Assembly (NCBI GenBank): GCA_002706765.1 | Contig: PAJV01000076.1 | Coordinates: 372,001-436,000, forward strand | Source of the DNA: Gimesia sp. | GTDB taxonomy: Bacteria > Planctomycetota > Planctomycetia > Planctomycetales > Planctomycetaceae | Length of the DNA stretch: 64,000 bases | Direction of reading: 5' to 3' | Notes under the pieces: model-generated | What the model saw: the letters and a program-made list of their open reading frames with translations, nothing else | What the model was told of the DNA's origin: nothing | Database searches by the model: none | Part shown: piece after piece, positions 39,568 to 63,370 of the stretch | Layout: each line of letters opens with the position of its first letter | How positions within the stretch are numbered: position 1 is the first letter of the stretch | Program-made: the position numbers and the translations under genes

Positions 39568-40398
39568 ATGAATACCTCCGCTCTGAACGTCTGCAGTTTC
39601 GAAAGTCGCAAAAGCGACGCCATGACTTCCCTGATCGAACGCAACCAGGGGAATCCCACGCTCGTACATTCCATGGATGAAATTCCGCTGGAAGACAACG
39701 CACAGGTGAAGTCATTCTGCGAGAAACTGTTTCGAGGCGAGATTGACGTGATCGTCTTCATGACCGGCGTGGGGGCGACTGCTTTGCTCAACGCGGCAGA
39801 GCTTTATTTCCCGCGCGATCAGGTTCTGGAGGCCTTCCGTAAGATTATCGTGGTGGTGCGGGGCCCGAAGCCGACCGTGGTGCTGCGTAACTGGGAAGTT
39901 CCCATTAACTACTCGGCTCCGGAACCGAATACCTGGCATGAGATCATTTCTGTCTTGGACGAAAAAAAGTTTTCCGTGACAGGCAAGCACATCGCCGTTC
40001 AGGAATACGGGAAGCCGGTCGAAGGATTCTACGAAGCCCTGCGGAACCGTGGGGCCCAGGTCCTGCCGATCGCCGTCTATCGCTGGGCATTGCCCGATGA
40101 TACCAGTGGGCTCCGCAACGCCGTCCATGCGACCATTCGCGGAGAGTATAACGTGCTGATGTTTACCAGCGCGCAGCAGATCACACACGTCCTGCAGATC
40201 GCCGAAGAAGAACAGGTGAAAGAGGACTGGCTGCTGGCCGCCTCCAAAACCATGATCGCCTCGGTCGGTCCCGCCTGTACGGAAGCGCTGCAGGAAGCAG
40301 GCCTGCCCGTCGATTTTGAATCGAGCCCTCCCAAAATGGGACCGCTGGTGAAAGATGCCCTGCAGGCGGCGCCTGCCATTCTCTCCCAAAAAGGCTGA
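39568..40398 (+). CDS. hemD: Uroporphyrinogen-III synthase
   Basis: A 276-residue HemD-fold protein: 'LNVCSFESRKSDAMTSLIERNQG', 'DVIVFMTGVGATALLNAAEL', 'IVVVRGPKPTVVLRNWEVPINYSAPEPNTWHEII', 'YNVLMFTSAQQITHVLQIAEE' and 'MIASVGPACTEALQEAGLPVDFES'. The enzyme cyclises hydroxymethylbilane with ring D inversion. HemD sequences are very diverged, but the next genes are hemE and hemG, which supports the call. The ribosome site is weak. Confidence 0.85.
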   Translation: MNTSALNVCSFESRKSDAMTSLIERNQGNPTLVHSMDEIPLEDNAQVKSFCEKLFRGEIDVIVFMTGVGATALLNAAELYFPRDQVLEAFRKIIVVVRGPKPTVVLRNWEVPINYSAPEPNTWHEIISVLDEKKFSVTGKHIAVQEYGKPVEGFYEALRNRGAQVLPIAVYRWALPDDTSGLRNAVHATIRGEYNVLMFTSAQQITHVLQIAEEEQVKEDWLLAASKTMIASVGPACTEALQEAGLPVDFESSPPKMGPLVKDALQAAPAILSQKG

Positions 40399-49766: not shown

Positions 49767-50501
49767 TCACCCGAAAACAGTTTTCATCGCGGTCGACAGA
49801 TCCCGGAAGGCCTGTTCTCCATTGCCTGTGAAACTGGAGCCGTGCATGATGGCCAGCGTTTTGGGTTTCAGGTCTGCCAGGCGGTTGAGAATCCGGTCTG
49901 TCTGATTTGTGTAGGGCATGTAGTCGGCCAGCGGTCCCGCCTGCATCTGCTGCATCGCCGTCAGTACCTGTTCTGACAGATCGCTTTCGGTGAGGGCGTC
50001 GGGGTTGCCTCCCTGGTGAAACAGATCGGAGCAGAACAGCGTCCCCTGCGTCTGTTCATACAACAGCCCCGCATCCCAACCGTGAGGCAGTTGCGCGATC
50101 GAGCAGAAGCGGTATTGGTATTTTCCCGTGTTGAGCTGATCGCCGTCGACCATCCCTTTGGGCGGCCGGATCGCGAAATCGTTAATATTGATCATCGCCG
50201 AAACCAGGCTGCAGACCGGCTCGGCTTCGGGGGCCACTTCCAGCCACTGGTTGAGCGCCCCGCATTCATCCGACTCAAAATGACTGAAGGCGATATACCG
50301 CAGGTCCGCCGCATCCATCACCTGCGCGACCGCTTTGTGGACCAGCGGAAAGCTGGACTTAAACCCGGTCGTAAACAGCAGCGGCGCATCATCGCGGACC
50401 AGAAAATAATTAAACTGCAGATCCAGCCCCTGAGCATAACAGCCAATCCGAAACACATCCGGAGTGATTTCGTTTATCGTGGGCGTGGCGAAATCGAACA
50501 T
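49767..50501 (-). CDS. MBL-fold di-iron (ODP/flavodiiron-like) protein
   Basis: A 244-residue stand-alone metallo-beta-lactamase domain of the oxygen-binding di-iron group: ligand motif His-x-Glu-x-Asp in 'FSHFESDECGALNQW', a third His in 'LPHGWDAG', Asp in 'FCSDLFHQGG' and a terminal His in 'IMHGSSFTGNG'. It lacks the flavodoxin domain of full flavodiiron proteins. Such proteins reduce O2 or NO or act as sensors; the reaction here is inferred. Confidence 0.8.
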   Translation of the reverse strand: MFDFATPTINEITPDVFRIGCYAQGLDLQFNYFLVRDDAPLLFTTGFKSSFPLVHKAVAQVMDAADLRYIAFSHFESDECGALNQWLEVAPEAEPVCSLVSAMININDFAIRPPKGMVDGDQLNTGKYQYRFCSIAQLPHGWDAGLLYEQTQGTLFCSDLFHQGGNPDALTESDLSEQVLTAMQQMQAGPLADYMPYTNQTDRILNRLADLKPKTLAIMHGSSFTGNGEQAFRDLSTAMKTVFG

Positions 50502-50572
50502 TGGGCTGGTTTCTGGTAATTGAGAAGGATGGAAATCAACGATGGCCCATGAGAATAGTTATACAACTGCTT

Positions 50573-51943
50573 TCAGTCAGTTTTTGATGCTAATTCTGCT
50601 GGTTCACGATGGTAGGGTTTTTCTTCCAGATAGAGCTTCAATCGAGTCTCGAATTCCTTCTTTTTAGACTCCTTCTCAACTCGTTGTAAAACAATTTTCT
50701 GGTATTTGATTGCTTGTTCGAAATTACCTGTTTCCGCATAAGCAGCCGCGAGTGTGTCAAGATATTCCGGGTCCCTCCATCTGGTTAGTTCACATGCTTT
50801 TTCCCCATATTTTAAGGCCTCTTTTCCATCACGATATTCAGGATCGGAACAGGTAGATCGAATCCAGGAGACACCGTTGTGTCCTTGAGGCCACGCGGGG
50901 CGTTGACGAATGACTTTCTGGTAATCCTCAAGCGCTCTGTCGAACTTTCCATGAGATTCATGAAAGTAGCCACGGGTAAGAAGGAGCGTTTCATCAATCG
51001 GGTCCTTCTCGATCAGGGCGTCAATTTCTTTGATCGCCTTGTCATAGTCCCCGTTCGCACTGAAGGCGTAAGCGCGACTATTGTATGTAGGCCAGAATTC
51101 AGGGGCTAAACGGATTGCAGTATTAAAATCCGAAATTGCCTTGGCAGGTTTCTCTTGTTGATGCCAGGTGAGACCTCGTTTGTAGTAAGCCAGATGAGAT
51201 TTGGGTGAAAGTCCGATCATGGTGTTGTAGTCTTTGAGTGCCTGATCATACTTCTCTAATGCAAACCAGGTGTCTGCTCGCTTCATGAAAGCATCTGCGA
51301 ATTTGGGGTCTAGCTCGATAGCCTTGTTTAAGTCTGTTAATGCATTCTGATAGGCTGGGGCATACTTGCTTCCTCTCTCATACTCGGCCGCACCACGATA
51401 GTAATATGATTTACTGTTGTGAGGGTAATATTTGATGGCATCATCGAGATAATTACCTGCTGTGTCATATTCTGTTCGGGAAAACCAGGTAACGGCCTTG
51501 TAGTGATATGCCAAGGCATTTCGTGAATTAAAACGAATTGCCCATGTAAAGTCGTCTAATGCTTTACTGGATTCATTTTGAGCAAACCAGGTAATGCCTC
51601 GGTTTGTGTATGCCCACGAGCTGAAAGGGTTTTTGGTTTTAATGTAATCGGTATAGTAGGCAACCGCTTCATCCAGAGGTAGCACATGAGATTTCTCAAC
51701 CCAACCCCCATCCACTTCTAAGAATTCACCTTCGGTTTTGTTGACCTTCAATGGGAATTGAATACTCTCGGCTGGAACTTCTTCTTTGGCTTTACTGGTT
51801 TTGAAATACTTTATTTGGGCGTTAGGCATGAATTGCCTGTCGATCCAGTCTTCTGCGTAGAGCGATGATGGGAATATGAAAAAAATGGTGACTAAACCAA
51901 AAAAAAGTGTACGCGATAGTTTGGGTATATTGCAAAAATACAT
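50573..51943 (-). CDS. Exported tetratricopeptide repeat protein
   Basis: Start moved to the ATG at 51943, which begins a signal peptide (hydrophobic at about 11-26, ending near SLYAEDW); an ATG 60 bases upstream is in frame. The 456-residue product contains at least eight 34-residue TPR motifs from about residue 110 on (e.g. 'AYHYKAVTWFSRTEYDTAGNYLDDAIKYYP', 'AYYKRGLTWHQQEKPAKAISDFNTAIRLAP'). The first 80 residues form a separate small domain. A periplasmic scaffold role is likely; partner unknown. Confidence 0.85.
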   Translation of the reverse strand: MYFCNIPKLSRTLFFGLVTIFFIFPSSLYAEDWIDRQFMPNAQIKYFKTSKAKEEVPAESIQFPLKVNKTEGEFLEVDGGWVEKSHVLPLDEAVAYYTDYIKTKNPFSSWAYTNRGITWFAQNESSKALDDFTWAIRFNSRNALAYHYKAVTWFSRTEYDTAGNYLDDAIKYYPHNSKSYYYRGAAEYERGSKYAPAYQNALTDLNKAIELDPKFADAFMKRADTWFALEKYDQALKDYNTMIGLSPKSHLAYYKRGLTWHQQEKPAKAISDFNTAIRLAPEFWPTYNSRAYAFSANGDYDKAIKEIDALIEKDPIDETLLLTRGYFHESHGKFDRALEDYQKVIRQRPAWPQGHNGVSWIRSTCSDPEYRDGKEALKYGEKACELTRWRDPEYLDTLAAAYAETGNFEQAIKYQKIVLQRVEKESKKKEFETRLKLYLEEKPYHREPAELASKTD

Positions 51944-52108
51944 GATTTCAATCACGGGTTGGAGATTATCGATGATCGACCAGTCAGTCTTATTAGTATA
52001 CACTGATCATACTGCGGATTACTATTATTAATTCAGTTGGTTCAGAGTTATGTAAGTCAAGGATTACTCATTCTTCCTATATCTGCCAGATAAAAAAAGA
52101 AAAATCCC

Positions 52109-52597
52109 ATGAAACAACGCAAATCTGCTCGGGCGATATTGTTGAATGAGTGGGATCAGGTGCTGCTGGTGCGGCATGAAGATGCACTGCCCGTTGATCG
52201 GTCGCGGCCGGAGGTGCTCGGTTACTGGGCGACTCCCGGTGGTGGGATTGAAGGTGGGGAATCGGCAGTCGAGGCACTGCGGCGGGAGTTGCGGGAGGAA
52301 CTGGGGCTGACGGAGGTGATGATCGGGCGGCGGATTGGTTTGCGTGAAGTGCAGCTGGACCTGCCGGGGATCGGGGCTGTGCTCAGTCATGAGACGTACT
52401 ATGTGTGCCGGGGGAGAGAGACGCCTGTGTTGAATCGCGAAGGTTTATCGGAATGGGAGCGGCGGGTGTGTAAAGCGATTCGCTGGTGGTCGCGGGAAGA
52501 ACTCGCAGGTACCTCTGAGATTCTGCGGCCTGCGGCGTTGGTGGAACTGTTCGAAAGTGTGTTTCGTAATGATTCTGAACCGCTGCTGCTGGAATGA
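52109..52597 (+). CDS. Nudix hydrolase
   Basis: A 162-residue Nudix protein with the Nudix box G-x5-E-x7-R-E-x2-E-E-x-G visible as 'GGGIEGGESAVEALRRELREELGLTE' (about 50-75). Family members hydrolyse nucleoside diphosphates linked to other groups. The last 20 codons of its 3' part share 59 identical bases with a gene fragment at 57326-57384. It is convergent with the NtrC-like gene at 52697. Substrate unknown. Confidence 0.88.
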   Translation: MKQRKSARAILLNEWDQVLLVRHEDALPVDRSRPEVLGYWATPGGGIEGGESAVEALRRELREELGLTEVMIGRRIGLREVQLDLPGIGAVLSHETYYVCRGRETPVLNREGLSEWERRVCKAIRWWSREELAGTSEILRPAALVELFESVFRNDSEPLLLE

Positions 52598-52696
52598 GGT
52601 TTTGCTTCTCATTGAAGTCGCGGGCCAAATTTTCTTTTCACTTGTACGAAAATAGCCATCCGCGAGATGAAAATGGTGCCTTGCAATAACTCTTGA

Positions 52697-54103
52697 CTAT
52701 TGTGAGGTGGGAGCCGTAAGTCTGGCAGTCTCGTTATTCGGTAGATTGTGATCCAGGATTCGGTATAAGGTTCTGCGGTGCATTCCCAGAGTTCTGGCTG
52801 CTTCTGCCTTATTTCCACCACAACGTTTTACGACTTCGCTCACCATATACTGCTCCATGGATTTCAGATCACCATTCAGAGGGACCGAGATCGAATTTCT
52901 GCTCGCGATTGTTCCTGGTGGGTTTAAATTTTTGAGTTGTTCAACGACAAACGAACTGTCAGCAAGAATCACAATTTTGGACAATACCGTGATCAGTTCC
53001 TGTATATTGCCGGGCCAGTCGTAGTTGGTGAGTGCTTCCCACGAGTTGTGATCGATCATGTGTCGCAAGTTTTGACTTTTGTCATTTCCCGTAAGACTTA
53101 ACTGCTCGAGGATATGTATGCAGAGTGGTTTGATATCCTCACGTCTTTCACGGAGTGGTGGGACGTTAAGGGGTAGCAGGTTCAGCCAGTCGTACAGACT
53201 TCTGTGGAAAGTGCCCCTGGAGACTGCTTCTTTGAGGTCCGCTGTCGTTGATGCAATCAGTCTTAGAGAACAGGATTCGGAGCTGATGCGGGAAGGTGTT
53301 CGTAACAAGCCATGTTCTCGCATGCCAAGAAGCTGTTTTTGTTCATACATCGGCAGCTGATCAATGTCCTCAAGAAAGATAGTCCCTCTGTTGCAGTTCA
53401 AGTTGAAATGGCTTGGTTCCTGATTTTTCAGAACAAAAAATTGTGACTGGTGAACCTGTTCGCTGCTGCCGATGGATGCACAGTTTATCTGGGTGAATGG
53501 TTCGTTTACTTTTTGACTGAATTGATGAATCATTTTCGCCAGCGTTTTTTTTCCGACACTGACTTCTCCCCGCAGCAGGACGGGAAACTCCAGACGTGAA
53601 ATCCGTTTGATTGACAGAAGAATTTTCTGCATGGAAGCACTGATACTGACGAAGTGACTTCGGTCCGGAATGCTGACAGACGTGTGTTGTGTCTCCTGAG
53701 GTATCGTATTTTGCTTTGTTTTTTTACTGGCTCGATTGATTCGAATCGCATGATGCAGAGATTTGATGATCTGCTGTCGATCAAAAGGCTTGGTAATGTA
53801 ATCACAGACGCCCAGGCGAATCCCTGCAATGGCGGTTTCCAGTGACCCCCAGCCGGTCATGATAATTGAAGCGATGTGGGGATGAATCTGCAGCGCCTTT
53901 CGAATCAGACTGAGTCCATCTTCATCGGGGAGATGTAAATCGGCAATTAATACATCAATGGAATGCTCATCTAAATAATTGACGCCTTCTTTTGTATTCG
54001 TAGCTAAAAAGACCTGCATGCCTTCGTTTTGAATGAATTTCCGGACGAGATTCCCGACGCCTGTATCATCTTCGACTACCAATATTGTTTCCAGATTTGC
54101 CAT
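52697..54103 (-). CDS. NtrC-like regulator with degenerate AAA+ domain (paralogue 1)
   Basis: A 468-residue protein: receiver domain (about 1-120) with normal acidic pocket E11-D12-D13, phospho-acceptor Asp55 in 'IADLHLPDEDG' and Lys in 'CDYITKPF'; AAA+ domain (about 150-380) with Walker A 'GEVSVGKKTL' but Walker B 'FLEDID' instead of 'FLDEI'; and a Fis-type HTH at about 415-455 ('EVVKRCGGNKAEAARTLGMHRRTLYRIL'). The GAFTGA loop that contacts sigma-54 is missing, and both usual arginine-finger sites (FRED, YRLN) read FHRS and DWLN. So it probably does not remodel sigma-54 holoenzyme in the usual way and may be a plain DNA-binding regulator. Paralogue at 55248. Confidence 0.8.
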   Translation of the reverse strand: MANLETILVVEDDTGVGNLVRKFIQNEGMQVFLATNTKEGVNYLDEHSIDVLIADLHLPDEDGLSLIRKALQIHPHIASIIMTGWGSLETAIAGIRLGVCDYITKPFDRQQIIKSLHHAIRINRASKKTKQNTIPQETQHTSVSIPDRSHFVSISASMQKILLSIKRISRLEFPVLLRGEVSVGKKTLAKMIHQFSQKVNEPFTQINCASIGSSEQVHQSQFFVLKNQEPSHFNLNCNRGTIFLEDIDQLPMYEQKQLLGMREHGLLRTPSRISSESCSLRLIASTTADLKEAVSRGTFHRSLYDWLNLLPLNVPPLRERREDIKPLCIHILEQLSLTGNDKSQNLRHMIDHNSWEALTNYDWPGNIQELITVLSKIVILADSSFVVEQLKNLNPPGTIASRNSISVPLNGDLKSMEQYMVSEVVKRCGGNKAEAARTLGMHRRTLYRILDHNLPNNETARLTAPTSQ

Positions 54104-54795
54104 GATGTGTTCTCACTATCAAGAGTATGAAAATATTGGAGATGTAATGAGTTTATTGTAATGCTATTGCGAGCTGACTCTTTCTCTGAGATGCCGGGGG
54201 AAATGGTTTAAGACTGTTTGAGAACGATGTCATATTAGACTGTGTCCCGTTTTATTGTAGCGTCTCCCGGTCCATTTGGACCGAGTATCTTAGATTGAAT
54301 GACGCTACGCTTATATGTCACGCGCTTTAGAAATGTGGTTAGCGATGAAACAAAATTATACTACGTACATGTTCATTTTGTAAATATCAATTTATGTGTG
54401 AAGCGGCCAGTAACAGGGTGTGACAGATTGTCATGACGCGGTAATGGTCCTTTCGCGTCTGTACCGGGATGCATCAGGAGTCCATCGTTTTCATCTCGTT
54501 TGAATGGAAAAAGTGTCTGCCTGATGGAATGCAGATGTGGCTTCGAATGTGGTTGGAAATTTACTGTGGCAGGCACTGTCACGTTGGGGGCGCTCACAGG
54601 TGCCGTCTGTGTCAGCAGGTCACAGTCATGCTGCGCACCCGAGACGCACTGTCACGAAAAAGTGGTTCTTTTTGCATTTTGTTATGTAACTGTGTTAGCA
54701 CGACGATATGTTTTGCGTTAGTTAGCTGAAATGAAAGTTTAAGAGTTGTGGTCAATTTCTCGTTCATGACTCAGGCAGTGCCGGAAGGAATGAAT
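54104..54795. other. Intergenic region between the two regulators
   Basis: The 692 bases between paralogue 1 (minus) and the small plus-strand gene hold dispersed repeat copy D (54237-54334). Short ORFs at 54373-54729 have no supporting start or composition. No promoter could be assigned with confidence. Confidence 0.45.
54237..54334 (+). repeat. Dispersed 98-bp repeat, copy D
   Basis: Begins AGACTGTGTCCCGTTTTATTG and ends CGCGCTTTAGAA. It has the clearest secondary structure of the four: GTAGCGTC and GACGCTAC pair, and CGGTCC-ATTT-GGACCG forms an inner 6-bp hairpin. It lies 134 bases upstream of paralogue 1 in the opposite direction. Confidence 0.75.
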
Positions 54796-55008
54796 ATGAA
54801 TTATCAAACTGTCATGTTTCGAAATCTACCGGAAATGGCTATTAAAACAGAGTCAAATCACAGATACGGATTCGATCTGGCACTGCAGGTGTCAAAGCGA
54901 AATGCGACGAATCAGGCGACACGCGACAAGTCTGAAAATGCGAGAGTCATACCTGAAAGTGCCTTTTTAAAATTATTGCGAACGGAATTCAAGAAGTCTC
55001 TTAATTGA
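54796..55008 (+). CDS. Small hypothetical protein between regulators
   Basis: GGAAGGA at 54783-54789 precedes an ATG at 54796 by six bases (another ATG at 54790). The 70-residue product ('MNYQTVMFRNLPEMAIKTE' start) is basic and mostly hydrophilic with no motif I recognise. A real small gene is likely from the ribosome site, but coding bias cannot be tested at this length. It lies 239 bases before regulator paralogue 2. Confidence 0.4.
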   Translation: MNYQTVMFRNLPEMAIKTESNHRYGFDLALQVSKRNATNQATRDKSENARVIPESAFLKLLRTEFKKSLN

Positions 55009-55247
55009 ACGGAACGTATCAGGAGAATGCGCCCCGCCTCCTGATTCAAAAAAAACAAATCTCAATTGTCATCAACAGTATGTTATTTCAGTGGTACTGA
55101 TTTCAATAAAAGTCACCAGTCTGAAAGTGAATCTGAATTTCATTTCATGAAAAAATGACAGGGCTTACGGTTTAAGTTGCATTCTAAAGATAACACGATT
55201 TCGATTAGTTGCTCTCAGGGAAGTCATATCTGCAGAAAGGATCGAGA

Positions 55248-56633
55248 ATGAAATGCCAGGAAACTGTCCTGATTATTGAGGCTGAAGCCAGTGTCGGGCG
55301 ATTTATCAAAGATGCTTTAGAGACTGAAGGAAAGAAAGTACTGCTCGCCTCCACGGCACAGCAGGGTCTGCAATATCTGCAGAGTCTGCGTATCGATATC
55401 ATATTTACAGAGCTTAAACTTCCGGACGGAGACGGACTCACAGTCATTCGCACAGCCCAGCAGGTCCACCCGAACATCGCTTCGGTGGTTATAACGGGAT
55501 TCGGCACTCTTGAATCCGCCATCGAAGCGATGCGCCTGGGAGTCTGCGACTATATCACAAAACCTTTCAGCCGACCGCAGGTTACTAAAGCACTTCACAG
55601 TGCCATCAATCTCACAAAGCTGAGTACTTTTCCAAAGTGGGAAAACGTTTCCTTACCTGACTCCGGGAAATCAATCAACAGAACACTTGTCGCGAAAAGC
55701 AGCACCATGCGGGAAGTGATTGCTCAGGGGAAAAAATTCTCCCAAATGGATATCCCCGTGCTGATTCAAGGCGAAAATGGGGTCGGGAAAAAGACGCTGG
55801 CAAGACTGATTCACAGGCACAGTCCCTTTTCAGATGGTCCGTATATTCACATCAACTGCGCAATTATAGAGAGTACAGAACGCTTTAATAAACAAGGTGT
55901 TGGGATTCTCAATCGTCTGCTGCAGACCGATTCGGTTGAAAATGCTCAGAAGACGACACTCTTCCTGGAAGACATTGATCAGTTACCTAGGTTAGAGCAA
56001 CGGCAACTGCTGATGATGCTCAAAGAGGGGTTGGTCAGGGCTCCCTGGGCGCCCCTTTCGAAAGTCAATGCCATTCGACTCATTACTTCCACAGCCATTG
56101 ATCTGAAGTCTGCCGTGCTTCAGGATGAATTTCATCGCAGTTTATACGATAATTTGAACATACTGCCGATTCTCGTTCCCCCGCTGCGTGAGAGAAGAGA
56201 AGACATCATTCCCCTGACAATTCAAATCCTGGAGCAACTCTGTCAGGTCTGGAATTGTAATTTTGCGGAATGTCGAGGCCGGATCAGTAAGGAAATGTGG
56301 GAAATGCTATATGAATACTCCTGGCCGGGCAATGTTCATGAACTGACCAGTGTGCTCTCCCGCGTACTCCTGACAGGCGACAGCGCGGAGGCGGCTAAAC
56401 TGCTCAAGCAGGCTAATCCAATGATTCAGAATGAAGAAATGATTTCAGTCCCCTTTATTGGCGACCTGAAACAGATGGAACGACATATGGTGAGCGAAGT
56501 CGTAAAACGCTGTGGCGGAAACAAGGCGGCTGCTGCCAGAACGCTGGGAATGCATCGCAGAACATTGTACCGTATGCTGTATAATGAAAGAGAGAACCTG
56601 GAATCGCGGCAGTCCATCGGTCTGGAGCAGTGA
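55248..56633 (+). CDS. NtrC-like regulator with degenerate receiver and AAA+ domain (paralogue 2)
   Basis: Start at the ATG at 55248 after AAAGGA. The 461-residue protein is co-linear with paralogue 1. Receiver: acidic pocket E11-A12-E13 (two Asp lost) and Glu55 ('FTELKLPDGDG') where Asp should be phosphorylated, with the Lys of 'CDYITKPF' kept. AAA+: Walker A 'GENGVGKKTLA', Walker B 'FLEDID' (Asp-Glu swapped), no GAFTGA, and arginine-finger segment reading 'FHRSLYDNLN'. HTH: 'EVVKRCGGNKAAAARTLGMHRRTLYRML'. It therefore looks phosphorylation-independent and probably sigma-54-independent. Confidence 0.8.
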   Translation: MKCQETVLIIEAEASVGRFIKDALETEGKKVLLASTAQQGLQYLQSLRIDIIFTELKLPDGDGLTVIRTAQQVHPNIASVVITGFGTLESAIEAMRLGVCDYITKPFSRPQVTKALHSAINLTKLSTFPKWENVSLPDSGKSINRTLVAKSSTMREVIAQGKKFSQMDIPVLIQGENGVGKKTLARLIHRHSPFSDGPYIHINCAIIESTERFNKQGVGILNRLLQTDSVENAQKTTLFLEDIDQLPRLEQRQLLMMLKEGLVRAPWAPLSKVNAIRLITSTAIDLKSAVLQDEFHRSLYDNLNILPILVPPLRERREDIIPLTIQILEQLCQVWNCNFAECRGRISKEMWEMLYEYSWPGNVHELTSVLSRVLLTGDSAEAAKLLKQANPMIQNEEMISVPFIGDLKQMERHMVSEVVKRCGGNKAAAARTLGMHRRTLYRMLYNERENLESRQSIGLEQ

Positions 56634-56641
56634 ATCGATTC

Positions 56642-57076
56642 TTATAATCGGAGTCGGCCCTTCTGGCTCTGGAGCAGACAATAACGCAACATCGAGACCA
56701 GTTCCGCATCCGTGGAATGGGTTATCTTTTCAATCTCGTTTCGATCCGAGTGAAATGTGGCTGATCGGTCTTCTTTTTCCAGGCGTTCTAATTCTGCTTT
56801 CAATAGGATTGCAGAATCCTTCCCTTTGGATATTCTCTTCACATCATGTTCTACACGTGATTCCGTGGCCATCTGCTGTGCCTTTAACTTCGACATTTGA
56901 ACCATTTTCAAGCCAATCATCGAAACCAGTCCAAACAGTCCGATGTTGGCCCAGAGATGTCTGATAGTCATATCAAACTCTGCCCCCCATCCAGCCGCAA
57001 TCAGGCATAAACTGAGCCATCCGATCAGATTGGTAAGCGAATTCCGCCCCGCATCATATATGGGAATGCAAGTCAT
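56642..57076 (-). CDS. Hypothetical membrane protein with coiled-coil tail
   Basis: A 144-residue protein with AAAGGAAAAAG as ribosome site. Two membrane helices (about 15-30 and 42-60) are followed by a charged, probably coiled-coil stretch (about 60-120). The end of the gene comes within eight bases of the regulator paralogue 2 stop (convergent). No family recognised; a small inner-membrane protein of unknown role. Confidence 0.55.
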   Translation of the reverse strand: MTCIPIYDAGRNSLTNLIGWLSLCLIAAGWGAEFDMTIRHLWANIGLFGLVSMIGLKMVQMSKLKAQQMATESRVEHDVKRISKGKDSAILLKAELERLEKEDRSATFHSDRNEIEKITHSTDAELVSMLRYCLLQSQKGRLRL

Positions 57077-57321
57077 TTCTTTTTCCTTTCAGTATTGCGT
57101 GGTGTCAACTGTATTGTTCCTGTGACCAAAACCTGTTCTTAAAAAGTATAAGTTCAGTTGTGAACGAGGACTGATATTTCGCGAGAATCTCCAGTGAAAA
57201 GTAGATTATGAGACAATCGCGCACTGGATTGAGACCACAGGTCACACTATTTATTGAGACTGAGTATATTGTTCCAATAAAGAAGGTGAATTAATCGGTT
57301 CCCCTGCCGAGACAGACATTG

Positions 57322-57444
57322 ATGTGCTGGTGGTCGCGGGAAGAACTCGCAGGTACCTCTGAGATTCTGCGGCCTGCGGCGTTGCCGGAACTGGTGGAGC
57401 GGACTTTTCTGGTTCATGCCGAACCTGTGTTGATGCGGGACTGA
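57322..57444 (+). pseudogene. Fragment of a Nudix-like gene (C-terminal end)
   Basis: A 40-codon frame with the reading 'CWWSREELAGTSEILRPAALPELVE' ends at a stop at 57442. Bases 57326-57384 are identical (59 of 59) to 52482-52540 inside the Nudix gene, after which the two diverge yet stay homologous in protein (VERTF.../FESVF..., EPVLM/EPLLL). The Nudix box is absent, so this is a gene remnant. Confidence 0.75.
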
Positions 57445-59257: not shown

Positions 59258-62200
59258 TCAGTTTTGAATGCGGTCCCAGGCCTGCAGCAGAAAGCTGCCT
59301 CGTTTGACTTTGGTGGCTGGCGACGATTGCTCTTCGGCCTGCTGCACCTGCTTCGCCAGTTGCCGCGGGTTGAGAGTCCCCTGCTCCAGTTGCTGCAGAC
59401 CCTGTTCCCAGGTGGTCTGCACAGATTGAGTCAGTGGTTCGTTGAGTCGGGCGTTGTAGTCGTTGAAAAAGCCTTTTGTCGCGAAATAGAGGGCAGCCGG
59501 TATTGCTGGGTCGGAATCGGTGATTTTGATGTCGTTAAAGAAGCTGACCAGCTGACGATAACGCACGAGAGTGTGCAGCAGCAGTTCAGGGTCGAGGTCG
59601 GCAGGAGTCGTCGAGTGCTGTTTCGCGAGTGCGGCGGCATAGCCGGCGGCTTCACCGGTCTGCAGGAAGACGGGTTCCAGACGGATGGCACCCCAGGCAA
59701 TATGAGACGCAGAGAGACAGACGGGGACCAGCAGGTTGTCGACGCCTTTGGGAAGAAGTGCGCGATAGGGGATCTGCGACGGACGGGATTCTTCGGTGAG
59801 AATCAGTTTGCCGTCGTATTTGAAACCGGGCCGACTGTCGGTGGTGCAGGAATGCGAATCCATATACCAGTCGGTGACGGCGATGCTGTCCGCGTGGATG
59901 GGAGTCCGCTGGTAATCTTCGGTCAGCATGCCATCATGTTCATTGAAGACATGGCGACCCACAATCCGGCGGGCTTCGCGGACGTACATTTCATAAGGGA
60001 CGTGATTGTGGTCGGCGTATTCATCTTCAGGCAGACCCCATTCGAGGAACTTCTTACGCTGCGCTTCCGGGATCGATTCATCGTGCTGCAGAAACCACAT
60101 CAGTCCCAGGCCGAAATCGAGATGCTGCTGAATGATCTGTTCGCGGATGGACCAGTCGGCTTCAGGATATTCGTGATTCTGTCCCGGCATGATCGGGCTG
60201 TTGACGTGCGACTTGTGGTTTGGTCCATTATGCGAAGCGATGTAACGGCGATGAAAGTTGAGATAATCCTCACGATTGTAGCTGTCTGGTTTGGGAATGG
60301 TCAGACGATTTGCGGGATCGGAGGTGACGCAGAAACGATAGTTATAAGCCTGGACCGCGCCGTCTGCAGTGAACGGGCTGGTGGGATCGACGCTCCCCTG
60401 CCTTGCTCCGTAGACGCGAATGTTGAGGCCTTCTTTGATAACGCTCTCGGGACGATGTCCGTCAATATTGACGAATACTTTCCCGGCGTGCGGTTCGTTG
60501 AATTCCTCGCGTGCTTCTCTACCGACGCGATACGGGACATCCGCCAGTGCGAACAGATCACCTTCATAGGTCGCATCGACAAAGGTGGAGCCGTTGACCT
60601 GGATCGTTTCGGGAGTGCCAAAGCGACAGAGGGTGACGCTTTGGATCATCGGTCCCTGGCGATCGACGTTCGTCGGGTAATGATTCAACAGGAGTGTGAT
60701 GTTGTTTTCCTGAGCGACGAGCCGATTATATTCGCGTTCAGCGACATGCGGTTCGGCCCAGCCGATGGGGTATTTTTCGTGGGTAAAGCGGATGATCTGG
60801 TGATCGCGGGAGTCGCGACCGAAAATGTCGATGTAATAGTTCTCGATGTTCTCGAGCAGTTCGCTGAAGAGGGGCGAACGGGGACCGCCGTAGAGGGCGT
60901 CCCATTGCATCAGGCCGTTGGTCATCATGCCGCCGAGGTGCCCGTTATGCTGCACGAGCAGGACGGAACAGCCTTCCCGGGCCGCACGCACGGCACAGGC
61001 GACACCGCCGCCCGTTCCGCCAACAACAACGACATCGTATGTTTTGCCGTTTACTTTCACTGCGGGAGTCTCTTTCGCGAGGGTGACGGGTTCGTCCGAA
61101 TGTCGGGTACTTTCACCGGGTGTGCGGGGTTCGGTTTTTGCAGCGAGGGGGGAGACAGCGACGCGGGCAGCCTGTGGATTGGGGAGCGGCTTCGCGACCG
61201 GTTTTTCCGCCATGCTGATTTCGGGGAAACCGGAGGCTGTAGTGCCGGCGCGTTCTGCAGCAGCGATTTCTACCGACAGCAGCTGCAGGCCATCGACGAC
61301 GACGTAGCCATCGGCACCGGTATTGGAAATCGTGATATGCGCCGGCTGCCCTGCTGCAAAATGGAATTCACCCAGAGAAACGGGAATGCGATCGATGAGA
61401 GCCGGTTGTCGCTGATTGATGGTGACGGTTTTTTCTCCGTCTGCGCTCTGGATGGTGACGGGTACTCTGGTGGAACGGTTTTCATGCCAGGTATAGAGCA
61501 GTCGGACTTCGTAGTCGCCTGTGTGTTTGATTTTCGGCGAGAAGCGGGCGGTTTTCTTACCGCGTTCTTTGTTATTGTCGTGGGTATAGGTGGGGCCGAT
61601 GGGCGAAGGTTGACGATTGCTTTCGCTCCAGCCTCCAGTGAATTCAGCTGCGGAATCATCGAGTACGATTCCCGGCAGTGTTTCCGCCGATGTGATGACG
61701 CGTGGCTGTGTTTGTCCACGTTTGATGGGCGAAGGCCAGTCGAGCAGTTGGCCGTCGGCAAGCAGCTGGGTACGGAGCCGCTGGTAGTTGATTTTCTGGA
61801 TCGGGCAGTCGGCATCGATGGCCTGGCAGGCGGCGGTGGCAGCGGACTGGCTGAGGATCATGAGCACGGGTTCCATGCGGGTGGAACCAAAGGCGACGTG
61901 ACTGGCGGAGATCGCAAAGGTGACGAGCAGGTTATTGCATTCGGACGCTTTGGGGACGATGGCTTCAAAACCGATGGGGTAAGGGCCGCGGGTGCCGGTA
62001 TGCCCGAGCAGTTTGCCTTCGCGGATCATCATGCCGTCATGAGCGATGCGACGGATTTCGTGGATGTCGACTCCATAGGAAGCCAGACCAACGGATTTAG
62101 GAGCGACTTCCGTGTGGCGACAATGATGTTCTGTCATGACCAGGTCGGAGATCATCCGCCGTGACTCGCGAATATAAAGCTGATGCGGCCAGCCTCCGTT

Positions 62201-63370
62201 GTCGAGAAATTCATCTTTGCAGAGACCGTACTGACTGATCTGCTGCCGGACTTTTTCGGGGACGCGCGGATCGGTCTTCAGGAAATGATACAGGCCGCGA
62301 GCGTAGTTTTCGTGTTCTTTGATGATTTTCTGACGCTCGGCGTGGCTGGCTTCGGTGTAGCCTTTATTCCCGCCGACGTAGTTCAAACCGAAGTAGGCGG
62401 TGTTGAAATCGAATTTGCCGTTGGGAAGTGCATCGTGTTTGGTGAACCAGCGGAGGTCCATGTCATCGCCGGCCTGCTGACAGGCTTTGATATAACGGGC
62501 GACGATTTCATACCGGGCAGGATCGTAGTTGGCGGGAGGCTGAATGGGGATGCGGTTGGCGGGTTGGTCGGTAACGCAGAGTCGAAAACAGTAGGCCTGC
62601 ACACCGGGAGCGGCTTCACCGGGGGTGCCGAGCTCACCTTCTTCAATCAGAGGCAACAGGCCGCTGTCCGGTTTTCCGGGGATGCGATAAGGGTCGAGGG
62701 GAATGGAACGGTCCCATAAGCCGCGACGATCTTTGCGGCGACCGATGGCATCGACTTTGCCGAACTTAACCTGGGGGATTTCGTGGTACTGAATGCCATT
62801 CAGGGTTTCGTTGTATTGCGAATTGGCTTCGCGGGTCAGCGAGTAAGAGACACCAGCGGCCGCCAGGAGATCGCCTTCGTAGGTGGTGTCGATAAACATC
62901 TTCGCGTCGATGCGGGTTCCGTTTTCGGTGATTAAAGTCTGGATGCGGGGGCCCTGTTTGATGACTTCTTTCAGTGGTTCTCCTTTAAGAACAGTCACGC
63001 CGGCTTGCTTGATCATCTCGTCGAACACCTGTTCGGCGACATGGGGTTCGAGCTGTGTTTCCAGGGTTTTATTGTATTTCTCGCCGATACGCTGATAGAA
63101 CTCGCGCGCCATGCCGGCGACGGTTGCCGCTTTCCCCATGTCGGAAAAGCTGAGTCCGCCGGAACTCATGCCCCCCAGATGCTGTCCGGGTTCGATGAGT
63201 ATCGCCTGTTTTCCGAGTCGGGCTGCTTTGACGGCAGCGACAACGCCTCCGGATGTTCCGCCGTAGATGCAGATGTCGACGCTGTGATCGGGCTTGTCAG
63301 CAGAGACTGGTTGCAGAAAAAACAGAGAGCAGCAGATAAGAGTGACAGCAATAACGAAGTTGCGAGGCAT
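59258..63370 (-). CDS. Tandem FAD-dependent oxidoreductase with central carbohydrate-binding-like module
   Basis: A 1370-residue exported protein. Signal peptide (about 1-24). Two FAD_oxidored modules, each opening with a dinucleotide-binding motif ('DICIYGGTSGGVVAAVKAARLGKQ' near 32, and 'YDVVVVGGTGGGVACAVRAAREG' near 775) and each with 'VDATYEGDL'-type and 'IRESRRM'/'VREARRI' motifs. Between them (about 560-700) lies a golvesin/CBM-like beta domain ('TGDYEVRLLYTWHENRSTRVPVTIQ'). Planctomycete-type enzymes that oxidise sugars or polyols are implied. Adjacent to a sialidase-like gene (66 bases). Substrate unknown. Confidence 0.88.
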   Translation of the reverse strand: MPRNFVIAVTLICCSLFFLQPVSADKPDHSVDICIYGGTSGGVVAAVKAARLGKQAILIEPGQHLGGMSSGGLSFSDMGKAATVAGMAREFYQRIGEKYNKTLETQLEPHVAEQVFDEMIKQAGVTVLKGEPLKEVIKQGPRIQTLITENGTRIDAKMFIDTTYEGDLLAAAGVSYSLTREANSQYNETLNGIQYHEIPQVKFGKVDAIGRRKDRRGLWDRSIPLDPYRIPGKPDSGLLPLIEEGELGTPGEAAPGVQAYCFRLCVTDQPANRIPIQPPANYDPARYEIVARYIKACQQAGDDMDLRWFTKHDALPNGKFDFNTAYFGLNYVGGNKGYTEASHAERQKIIKEHENYARGLYHFLKTDPRVPEKVRQQISQYGLCKDEFLDNGGWPHQLYIRESRRMISDLVMTEHHCRHTEVAPKSVGLASYGVDIHEIRRIAHDGMMIREGKLLGHTGTRGPYPIGFEAIVPKASECNNLLVTFAISASHVAFGSTRMEPVLMILSQSAATAACQAIDADCPIQKINYQRLRTQLLADGQLLDWPSPIKRGQTQPRVITSAETLPGIVLDDSAAEFTGGWSESNRQPSPIGPTYTHDNNKERGKKTARFSPKIKHTGDYEVRLLYTWHENRSTRVPVTIQSADGEKTVTINQRQPALIDRIPVSLGEFHFAAGQPAHITISNTGADGYVVVDGLQLLSVEIAAAERAGTTASGFPEISMAEKPVAKPLPNPQAARVAVSPLAAKTEPRTPGESTRHSDEPVTLAKETPAVKVNGKTYDVVVVGGTGGGVACAVRAAREGCSVLLVQHNGHLGGMMTNGLMQWDALYGGPRSPLFSELLENIENYYIDIFGRDSRDHQIIRFTHEKYPIGWAEPHVAEREYNRLVAQENNITLLLNHYPTNVDRQGPMIQSVTLCRFGTPETIQVNGSTFVDATYEGDLFALADVPYRVGREAREEFNEPHAGKVFVNIDGHRPESVIKEGLNIRVYGARQGSVDPTSPFTADGAVQAYNYRFCVTSDPANRLTIPKPDSYNREDYLNFHRRYIASHNGPNHKSHVNSPIMPGQNHEYPEADWSIREQIIQQHLDFGLGLMWFLQHDESIPEAQRKKFLEWGLPEDEYADHNHVPYEMYVREARRIVGRHVFNEHDGMLTEDYQRTPIHADSIAVTDWYMDSHSCTTDSRPGFKYDGKLILTEESRPSQIPYRALLPKGVDNLLVPVCLSASHIAWGAIRLEPVFLQTGEAAGYAAALAKQHSTTPADLDPELLLHTLVRYRQLVSFFNDIKITDSDPAIPAALYFATKGFFNDYNARLNEPLTQSVQTTWEQGLQQLEQGTLNPRQLAKQVQQAEEQSSPATKVKRGSFLLQAWDRIQN

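Follow-up and report, generated by a model that had tools for sequence, protein, structure and literature searches.

The NtrC proteins of Rhodobacter capsulatus and Caulobacter, which lack the GAFTGA motif, act at sigma-70 promoters; that of R. capsulatus needs ATP binding rather than hydrolysis, and that of Caulobacter needs its Walker A and Walker B residues (PMC10274813, in excerpt). A defective GAFTGA motif has also been described for TyrR, DhaR, HupR, YplP, and about 110 homologues (PMC3162934, in excerpt). The change from a motor-driven sigma-54 activator to an ordinary regulator has thus far been known from separate examples. Here, we describe two genes, P1 and P2, found in a 64,000-nucleotide stretch of a Gimesia sp. 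genome (contig PAJV01000076.1, positions 372,001 to 436,000; hereafter, the window, whose own numbering is used), which encode NtrC-like response regulators belonging to a family of eight members. We consider it fairly probable, from the features of the sequence, that both are sigma-54-independent pseudo-ATPase regulators, binding ATP without hydrolyzing it, and that they are carried on a mobile islet. The two genes are as follows:

52697 to 54103, reverse strand: P1, 468 amino acids (aa), with a receiver (Asp55 kept), a pseudo-AAA+ domain (without GAFTGA, with Glu245-Asp246 and His300), and a Fis-type helix-turn-helix (HTH)
55248 to 56633, forward strand: P2, 461 aa, with a pseudo-receiver (Glu55, E11-A12-E13), a pseudo-AAA+ domain, and a Fis-type HTH

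P1 and P2 are divergently transcribed paralogues sharing 48% identity over 464 columns. The start of P2 is probably the ATG at 55248, with AGAAAGGATCGAGA ahead of it, the mechanically assigned TTG at 55209 being disfavored. In both proteins, Pfam recognized Response_reg, Sigma54_activat, AAA_lid_14, and HTH_8, with scores above the cut-offs for P1 and P2 (91.2 and 94 bits for PF00158 and 41.2 and 42.7 bits for HTH_8). The AlphaFold model of P2 has a mean pLDDT (predicted local distance difference test) of 79.2 and a pTM (predicted template modeling score) of 0.52, the old sigma-54 loop being of low confidence, with blocks at pLDDT 52 to 59; it was used for fold matching alone, in which whole-chain superpositions were poor (root-mean-square deviation mostly near 20). 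With this model, the best Foldseek matches were NtrX and NtrC1, and VpsR (7v2b) and FleQ were also among the matches.

The motif table was drawn from the alignment of P1, P2, and six relatives, i.e., the eight-member family, with positions given by PspF numbering. In all eight members, GAFTGA is absent from loop L1, and the distance from the Asn-Cys pair to Walker B is 40 residues in seven of them and 41 (counted by eye) in the member G013c, compared with 45 in the eight canonical relatives with a clean match. Walker B reads Glu-Asp throughout the family (LEDI versus the canonical LDE, with Asp-Glu). The arginine-finger motif RxDxxxR becomes HxSxxxW in P1 and HxSxxxN in P2. In particular, the position of PspF R162, the first finger, is occupied by His in every member (His300 in P1), that of D164 by Ser in P1 and P2 and by Ser, Asn, or Gly across the eight, and that of R168 by Trp306 in P1, by Asn in P2, and by a residue other than Arg in 7/8 members. 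An Arg is found one residue past the finger position (His-Arg) in all members, out of register. The first-pass annotation, made from the letters of the window, had reported for P1 and P2 the absence of GAFTGA, a Walker B reversed to Glu-Asp, and the loss of both usual finger arginines. The alignments confirmed these residues, and a GAFTGA motif or an arginine finger restored elsewhere was looked for in them without any being found. To that list can be added the sensor-II Arg, which is replaced by Gln or His in 8/8 members; the sensor-I residue is altered too (Thr, Ala, or Ser), yet it is variable also among intact paralogues of the same genome. As the same annotation had it, Walker A and the HTH are retained: the Walker A Lys is kept in all eight members, together with the Asn at the PspF N64 position (in P1, a Ser replaces one Walker A Gly), and HTH_8 was matched in P1 and P2. 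Since the common changes span members with 42 to 83% identity, they amount to more than chance.

In PspF, the substitutions R162H, D107A, and E108A lower the Vmax to 0.08, 0.23, and 0.15 per min, respectively, versus 39.5 per min in the wild type, and substitutions at R162, D164, and R168 give constitutive hexamers (PMC3419264, in excerpt); ATPase activity is reduced also in E108D (PMC4132715, in excerpt). With Walker B, finger, and sensor II changed together, a working ATPase is unlikely in the eight-member family, and nucleotide binding by its AAA+ domain is plausible.

The 7.9-Mb genome holding P1 and P2 (G000; other G-numbers designate the other genomes searched) has one sigma-54 gene and 26 other Sigma54_activat matches, 17 of them at 189 to 249 bits and 9 at 91 bits or less. 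Sixteen of the 19 own-genome proteins compared with P1 and P2 carry a G[AS]F[TS][GSD]A motif. Since the genome has this sigma-54 gene along with 16 proteins bearing a GAFTGA-like motif, the lineage of P1 and P2 would have been uncoupled while the system stayed. This coexistence also bears on a different role, namely that P1 and P2 antagonize canonical sigma-54 activators, either by occupying their enhancer sites or by poisoning the hexamers of intact paralogues. Such an activity could draw on the many intact activators of the genome and on the conservation of AAA+ core and HTH within the family, and GAFTGA-less subunits with intact folds could co-assemble. However, P1 shares 27 to 30% identity with the own-genome paralogues matched across receiver and AAA+, and no more than 34% across the AAA+-HTH part, so that mixed rings are unlikely, and the HTH of P1 and P2 is unlike that of these paralogues; we deem an antagonist role improbable. 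The three own-genome Sigma54_activat proteins without GAFTGA, L035 (G000:C77:237552-238868), L048 (G000:C76:135930-136412), and L049 (G000:C37:69063-69971), all fall outside the P1/P2 family in the tree, L048 (Walker B DQ, no Walker A Lys) and L049 (Walker B NE) on very long branches.

The search of 59 genomes with P1 (27 candidates scored per genome) recovered the family only in Gimesia, in five of the 17 genomes of this genus: two members in G000, three in G013, and one each in G007, G010, and G012. The eight other hits at E 1e-60 or better have 30 to 32% identity; in the seven that were read, GAFTGA or GAFTDA is retained, whereas the remaining one (L068), extracted in a wrong frame, was dropped. 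A profile search over 397 genomes of the class (4 candidates scored per genome) returned the same eight members at 747 to 801 bits, then a protein of G359, a genome of another genus in the same taxonomic family, at 379 bits, and the rest at 299 bits or less. Of the 137 relatives confirmed in the scan of genome contigs, which relies on patterns and performs best with close relatives, 80 were kept; viral contigs scanned by pattern with P2 yielded no relative. The LED[IV][DE]QL stretch, expressed as a DNA pattern, matched in 94 of the 397 genomes and was dropped as noise. Among open-licence papers, the literature search found none on this Gimesia family.

Maximum-likelihood trees were obtained from an input of 87 rows, left after dropping L068 and L206 (12 stops). 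One comprised 32 chosen rows and the other 76, i.e., the 87 minus two bad extractions (L212 and L076), a near copy (L227), and eight own-genome proteins (L040 to L047). The eight members form one clade, as do the eight together with G359, with support of 100/100 for both groupings in the 32-row tree and of 100 and 99, respectively, in the 76-row tree. When the root is placed among intact proteins, G359 is the sister of the eight-member clade, whose stem branch is long (1.32 to 1.54). In this clade, one group joins P2 to G007 and G013c (96/87), and another, more weakly supported, joins P1 to G013a/b and G010/G012 (88/89). The closest nondegenerate relatives in the tree are planctomycete NtrC-like regulators with GAFTGA; the planctomycete GAFTGA relatives in the motif table have a GAFTGA-like motif, a Walker B DE, both finger arginines, and the sensor-II Arg in nearly all cases. 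The G359 protein (locus L209:8762-12303) has GAFAES, a Walker B LDDV (Asp-Asp), and an arginine region FRRDLFDLL in which the first Arg is kept and the second is lost, with the sensor-II Arg kept; its gene is directly followed by that of a GAF-PAS-HisKA-HATPase-receiver hybrid histidine kinase. As for the question raised by the first-pass annotation, whether these changes define a clade of planctomycetes, they do mark a clade (100/100), which in the genomes searched comprises part of one genus rather than planctomycetes in general.

Usable Nei-Gojobori estimates of the ratio of nonsynonymous to synonymous substitution rates (dN/dS) were 0.06 for the pair G012/G010 (dS 1.5, near saturation) and 0.28 for G013a/b; P2/G007 gave 0.19 at a dS of 1.6. 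By region, where short lengths make the numbers rough, dN/dS in G012/G010 and G013a/b was lowest in the HTH (0.012 and 0.147) and, of the regions estimated, highest in the former sigma-54 loop at 209 to 238 (0.32 and 0.72), with values of 0.036 to 0.445 in the remainder of the AAA+ domain. Averaged over pairs of members, identity falls from 73% in the HTH and 60% in the receiver to 53 to 55% for the AAA+ core, 21% for the old loop, and 14% for the linker. A pattern with the HTH tightest and the old loop loosest is the one predicted by repurposing, and the family appears to be under purifying selection in the two pairs measured, i.e., repurposed and not decaying. The long stem branch and the lost catalytic motifs could also be taken as signs that P1, P2, and their relatives are decaying pseudogenes. 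However, decay is made unlikely by dN/dS values well below 1 in both pairs; furthermore, the frames of the complete members are open, the HTH is the most conserved domain, and the same motif changes recur in 8/8 members, for which reasons we regard the pseudogene explanation as extremely improbable.

The receiver of P1 is complete (E11-D12-D13, D55, T83, and K105). In P2, the corresponding residues are E11-A12-E13 and Glu55, with Thr83 and Lys105 kept, so that the phosphorylatable set is incomplete. The claim of the first-pass annotation that P2 lacks the acceptor Asp and most of the acidic pocket stands as to Glu55 and E11-A12-E13, and "most" is slightly strong, since one acid is replaced by Ala and the other changes from Asp to Glu, with Thr83 and Lys105 retained. 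The other seven members keep the phospho-acceptor Asp, and thus P2 alone has lost it; in the G007 member, which lacks its first approximately 50 residues, the acid pair was not readable. According to a review, Glu at the acceptor site can partly mimic phosphorylation in many response regulators, but this has been disproved in some pseudo-receivers (PMC12632262, in excerpt). That P2 is permanently in a phosphomimetic state, as had been suggested, is only a possibility.

Considering what the sequences themselves establish, namely, the losses, the common origin, the purifying selection in the measured pairs, the islet borders, and one empty site, we propose that P1 and P2 are NtrC-type response regulators turned into pseudo-ATPase transcription factors. 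In both, DNA would be bound by the Fis-type HTH, and a largely intact Walker A would probably bind nucleotide without hydrolysis. They would be unable to engage sigma-54, because the contact loop is gone, and would hardly hydrolyze ATP, because Walker B, arginine finger, and sensor II are changed, the AAA+ domain possibly being kept as a platform for assembly and allostery. P1 would be switched by phosphorylation of Asp55, and P2, not normally phosphorylatable, may be its fixed-state partner or a counter-regulator, which would amount to a division of labor. Most likely, the two would activate or repress sigma-70-type promoters directly, and a 4.8-kb islet would carry the pair together with the genes of a 70-aa protein and a putative membrane protein. 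The earlier description of a repurposed, sigma-54-independent family is well supported by one clade, shared losses, and purifying selection in two pairs; its independence of sigma-54 is what we infer.

The islet and its surroundings, which were not part of the first-pass annotation, as was also the case for the 70-aa and 144-aa genes, present the following features:

52550 to 57325: islet, 4,776 bp between direct repeats, holding P1, P2, a 70-aa gene, and a 144-aa gene
52482 to 52549, forward strand: left direct repeat, 68 bp, inside the NUDIX gene
57326 to 57393, forward strand: right direct repeat, 68 bp
52109 to 52597, forward strand: NUDIX gene (the target), 162 aa versus 163 in G014, the last 16 codons after the repeat (including the stop) being islet-derived, with the frame kept
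57325 to 57444, forward strand: stranded 3' end of the resident NUDIX gene, which reads WWSREELAGTSEILRPAALPELVERTFLVHAEPVLMRD and then a stop

The two repeats are identical at 66 of 68 positions, the first 59 exactly, and represent the only exact repeat of at least 24 bp at a spacing of more than 800 bp in positions 40001 to 64000 of the window. The right repeat runs into the resident NUDIX C terminus, which resembles that of G014, and the left NUDIX gene continues in the same frame into a different but similar tail. Repeats together with a restored gene end are what elements integrating at the 3' end of a gene leave behind. The islet is absent from this chromosomal location in all four Gimesia relatives aligned there. 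In G014, where the adjacent oxidoreductase is 92% identical, the NUDIX gene is followed directly by a 183-aa gene, which in the window lies beyond the 144-aa gene; this is an empty site. Thus, the flanking repeats of a gene end, the restored gene end, and the empty site expected of an integrative element at the 3' end of a gene are all found here. The G+C content of the islet is 45.5%, versus 52.5% in the 10 kb to the left and 55.4% to the right; composition is no guide to its border, however, since the windows of islet size that are lowest in G+C start farther left, at 50401 to 51401, and overlap the islet.

The G013 homologues lie at 6.78 to 6.83 Mb, elsewhere than the corresponding locus (3.09 Mb), and within approximately 3 to 11 kb of one of a pair of 543-aa tyrosine recombinases that share 92% identity; the vicinity also holds three recombinase fragments, and the block of G013b is flanked by a 149-bp repeat (134/149 identical) of recombinase sequence. 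The layout of the islet and the recombinases of G013 make it likely that the regulators move as cargo on a mobile islet, possibly by site-specific rather than homologous recombination. To the left of the islet, the stretch holding a TPR gene and the NUDIX gene (window 50573 to 52597) is itself variable, being missing at the corresponding place in three of the four relatives. Further along the window, positions 59258 to 63370 encode a 1,370-aa protein with two FAD_oxidored stretches and Golvesin_C, which has a match in 14 of the 17 Gimesia genomes at E 1e-200.

Among the frames of the islet, besides P1 and P2, only two have homologues in the loci compared:

54796 to 55008, forward strand: gene of a 70-aa small protein, in the 1.1-kb gap between P1 and P2, upstream of P2
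56642 to 57076, reverse strand: gene of a 144-aa putative membrane protein, convergent with P2, with hydrophobic N-terminal segments (judged by eye)

Homologues of the 70-aa protein occur in G007 (57% identity) and G013 (44%) and in no other Gimesia genome (3/17, including G000). In G013, the gene is directly upstream of the P2-type regulator G013c; in G007, it is at a contig end, the regulator being at the start of another contig. The 144-aa protein likewise has homologues in 3/17 Gimesia genomes (G000, G007, and G013), and thus the P2-type branch of the regulators, the 70-aa gene, and the 144-aa gene have one common distribution. Searches of Pfam, PHROGs, and NCBIfam with the 70-aa and 144-aa proteins gave nothing convincing, and plasmids searched by tblastn contained no match to the 144-aa protein. 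We also noticed a gene for a protein of 206 to 215 aa upstream of the family members in G012 and G010 (L155:9412-10059 and L156:9475-10095; 64% identical), the G012 copy of which has no Pfam match.

The PilZ proteins of G013 are homologous, in their N-terminal part, to the 144-aa protein: a longer homologue in that genome ends in a PilZ domain (28.2 bits), and a second copy is 91% identical. In G013, two related blocks with GAF-GGDEF, PAS/GAF-GGDEF-EAL, and PilZ genes stand beside two family members; Pfam was run on one block, the other being 85 to 95% identical at these three genes. Zinc-ribbon and NtrC-like genes are also present in the related blocks of this region (L153, G013:C1:6775000-6794999; L172; and L154, G013:C1:6820000-6839999). 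It is possible to hypothesize from these neighbors, and from the occurrence of VpsR and FleQ among the Foldseek matches, that P1 and P2 respond to cyclic di-GMP (c-di-GMP) as VpsR or FleQ do, the dead ATP site serving as a pocket for the second messenger. However, the best Foldseek matches are NtrX and NtrC1, not VpsR, no c-di-GMP gene was recognized on the islet of the window, and a close relative of the GAF-GGDEF gene is found only in G013 (1/17 Gimesia genomes at E 1e-60). If the FleQ numbering of PMC10723142 (in excerpt) is applied and the alignment is taken to be ungapped beyond the arginine finger, Gln or Glu stands at the R334 position and His, Gln, or Tyr at the E330 position in 8/8 members, only the R185 position being Arg or Lys in all; a FleQ-type pocket in the family was rejected on these grounds. 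A c-di-GMP-responsive role is, in our judgment, unlikely.

Upstream of P1, one promoter candidate was found:

54355 to 54384, reverse strand: sigma-70-like promoter candidate, TTTACA-18-TATAAT, matching at 11 of 12 positions

The sequence TGTCAC or its complement, considered as an operator, occurs four times between P1 and the 70-aa gene but has a single occurrence upstream of G013b and another upstream of the small gene of G007; it is absent from the other seven upstream stretches scanned and was rejected. A sigma-54 promoter upstream of the family genes was rejected as well, the best candidate among windows with GG and GC in place having 7/11 bases, in G007 and on the opposite strand. The arrangement of divergent genes around a 1.1-kb region holding the 70-aa gene, the att-like repeats, and the tyrosine recombinase genes that adjoin the G013 homologues might indicate that P1 and P2 control the islet itself, acting on the divergent promoters between them and on its excision or transfer, with recombinases helping in trans. 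No operator conserved across the family members was found, however, and in the 20 kb around the G010 and G012 copies, which have upstream neighbors in common and downstream neighbors not, no homologue of the G013 recombinase was found; we give little credence to this self-regulatory function.

With regard to the pseudo-ATPase regulators on a mobile islet that we favor, several observations weigh against such a function or its setting. The member G013a has Arg at the R168 position, and no PspF test of the double Walker B change from Asp-Glu to Glu-Asp was found in the literature. Caulobacter NtrC, although lacking GAFTGA, needs Walker B for its function (PMC10274813, in excerpt), and DNA-binding mutants of it activate some sigma-54 genes without GAFTGA (PMC12421884, in excerpt), so that loss of the motif is not absolute proof of uncoupling. 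Usable dN/dS values came from two pairs, one of them near saturation, and P1/P2 and P1/G013b were saturated; furthermore, the value of 0.445 belongs to the lid of G013a/b. The sigma-70-like sites of the region number 3, versus a mean of 2.7 in shuffles, which is within chance and makes them weak evidence, and no consistent binding-site motif (repeats or shared k-mers) was found upstream of the family members. As for the islet, it has no recombinase, the 70-aa and 144-aa frames being without a recombinase match, and only G014 of the four relatives offers a clean empty site, G008, G010, and G013 having no NUDIX gene at the locus. Finally, the more distant members G010 and G012 have neither the 70-aa nor the 144-aa gene, which are thus not needed by the whole family.

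What is probably new here is a graded evolutionary series, in which catalytic residues were lost uniformly under selection, and the location of such regulators on what is probably a mobile islet. The series runs from intact relatives (GAFTGA, DE, two Arg) through the half-decayed G359 (GAFAES, DD, one Arg, sensor II kept) to a converted clade under selection and makes the order of loss testable. It also raises the question of what the AAA+ fold is kept for once catalysis and contact with sigma-54 are gone, and the islet suggests that such regulators spread as cargo. A broader idea, that a Gimesia family of mobile elements has its own class of master regulator, an NtrC-derived pseudo-ATPase working without sigma-54 or ATP hydrolysis, represented in the window by phosphorylatable and non-phosphorylatable paralogues with dedicated small and membrane proteins and wired in G013 to c-di-GMP enzymes, appears doubtful to us.

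Compared with the sigma-54-dependent bacterial enhancer-binding proteins as a class, P1 and P2 share the Sigma54_activat AAA+ domain and the Fis HTH and are without GAFTGA and a catalytic ATPase site. They resemble the GAFTGA-less NtrC-like regulators that act with sigma-70 in that the L1 motif is lost while AAA+ core and HTH are under selection, as judged from the two dN/dS pairs. Like the NtrC proteins of R. capsulatus and Caulobacter, as described in the excerpts cited, they are kin of NtrC with an L1-loop deletion that removes GAFTGA, and where those proteins use their phosphorylation site, P1 could do the same; different from them, P1 and P2 are also changed in Walker B, arginine finger, and sensor II, and their genes are on an islet. 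Vibrio cholerae VpsR is likewise NtrC-like, with a defective GAFTGA, activity at sigma-70 promoters, and reportedly no need for ATP (PMC10274813, in excerpt, spelled VspR). However, VpsR binds c-di-GMP, and the FleQ-type pocket is not conserved in the P1/P2 family, as judged from the FleQ residues. With TyrR, DhaR, HupR, and YplP, P1 and P2 have in common that they are relatives of enhancer-binding proteins which lost the contact with sigma-54; the cases presented in the excerpt of PMC3162934 are separate ones with minor deviations, whereas P1 and P2 belong to one clade with a coordinated loss of the ATPase site and a half-way relative.

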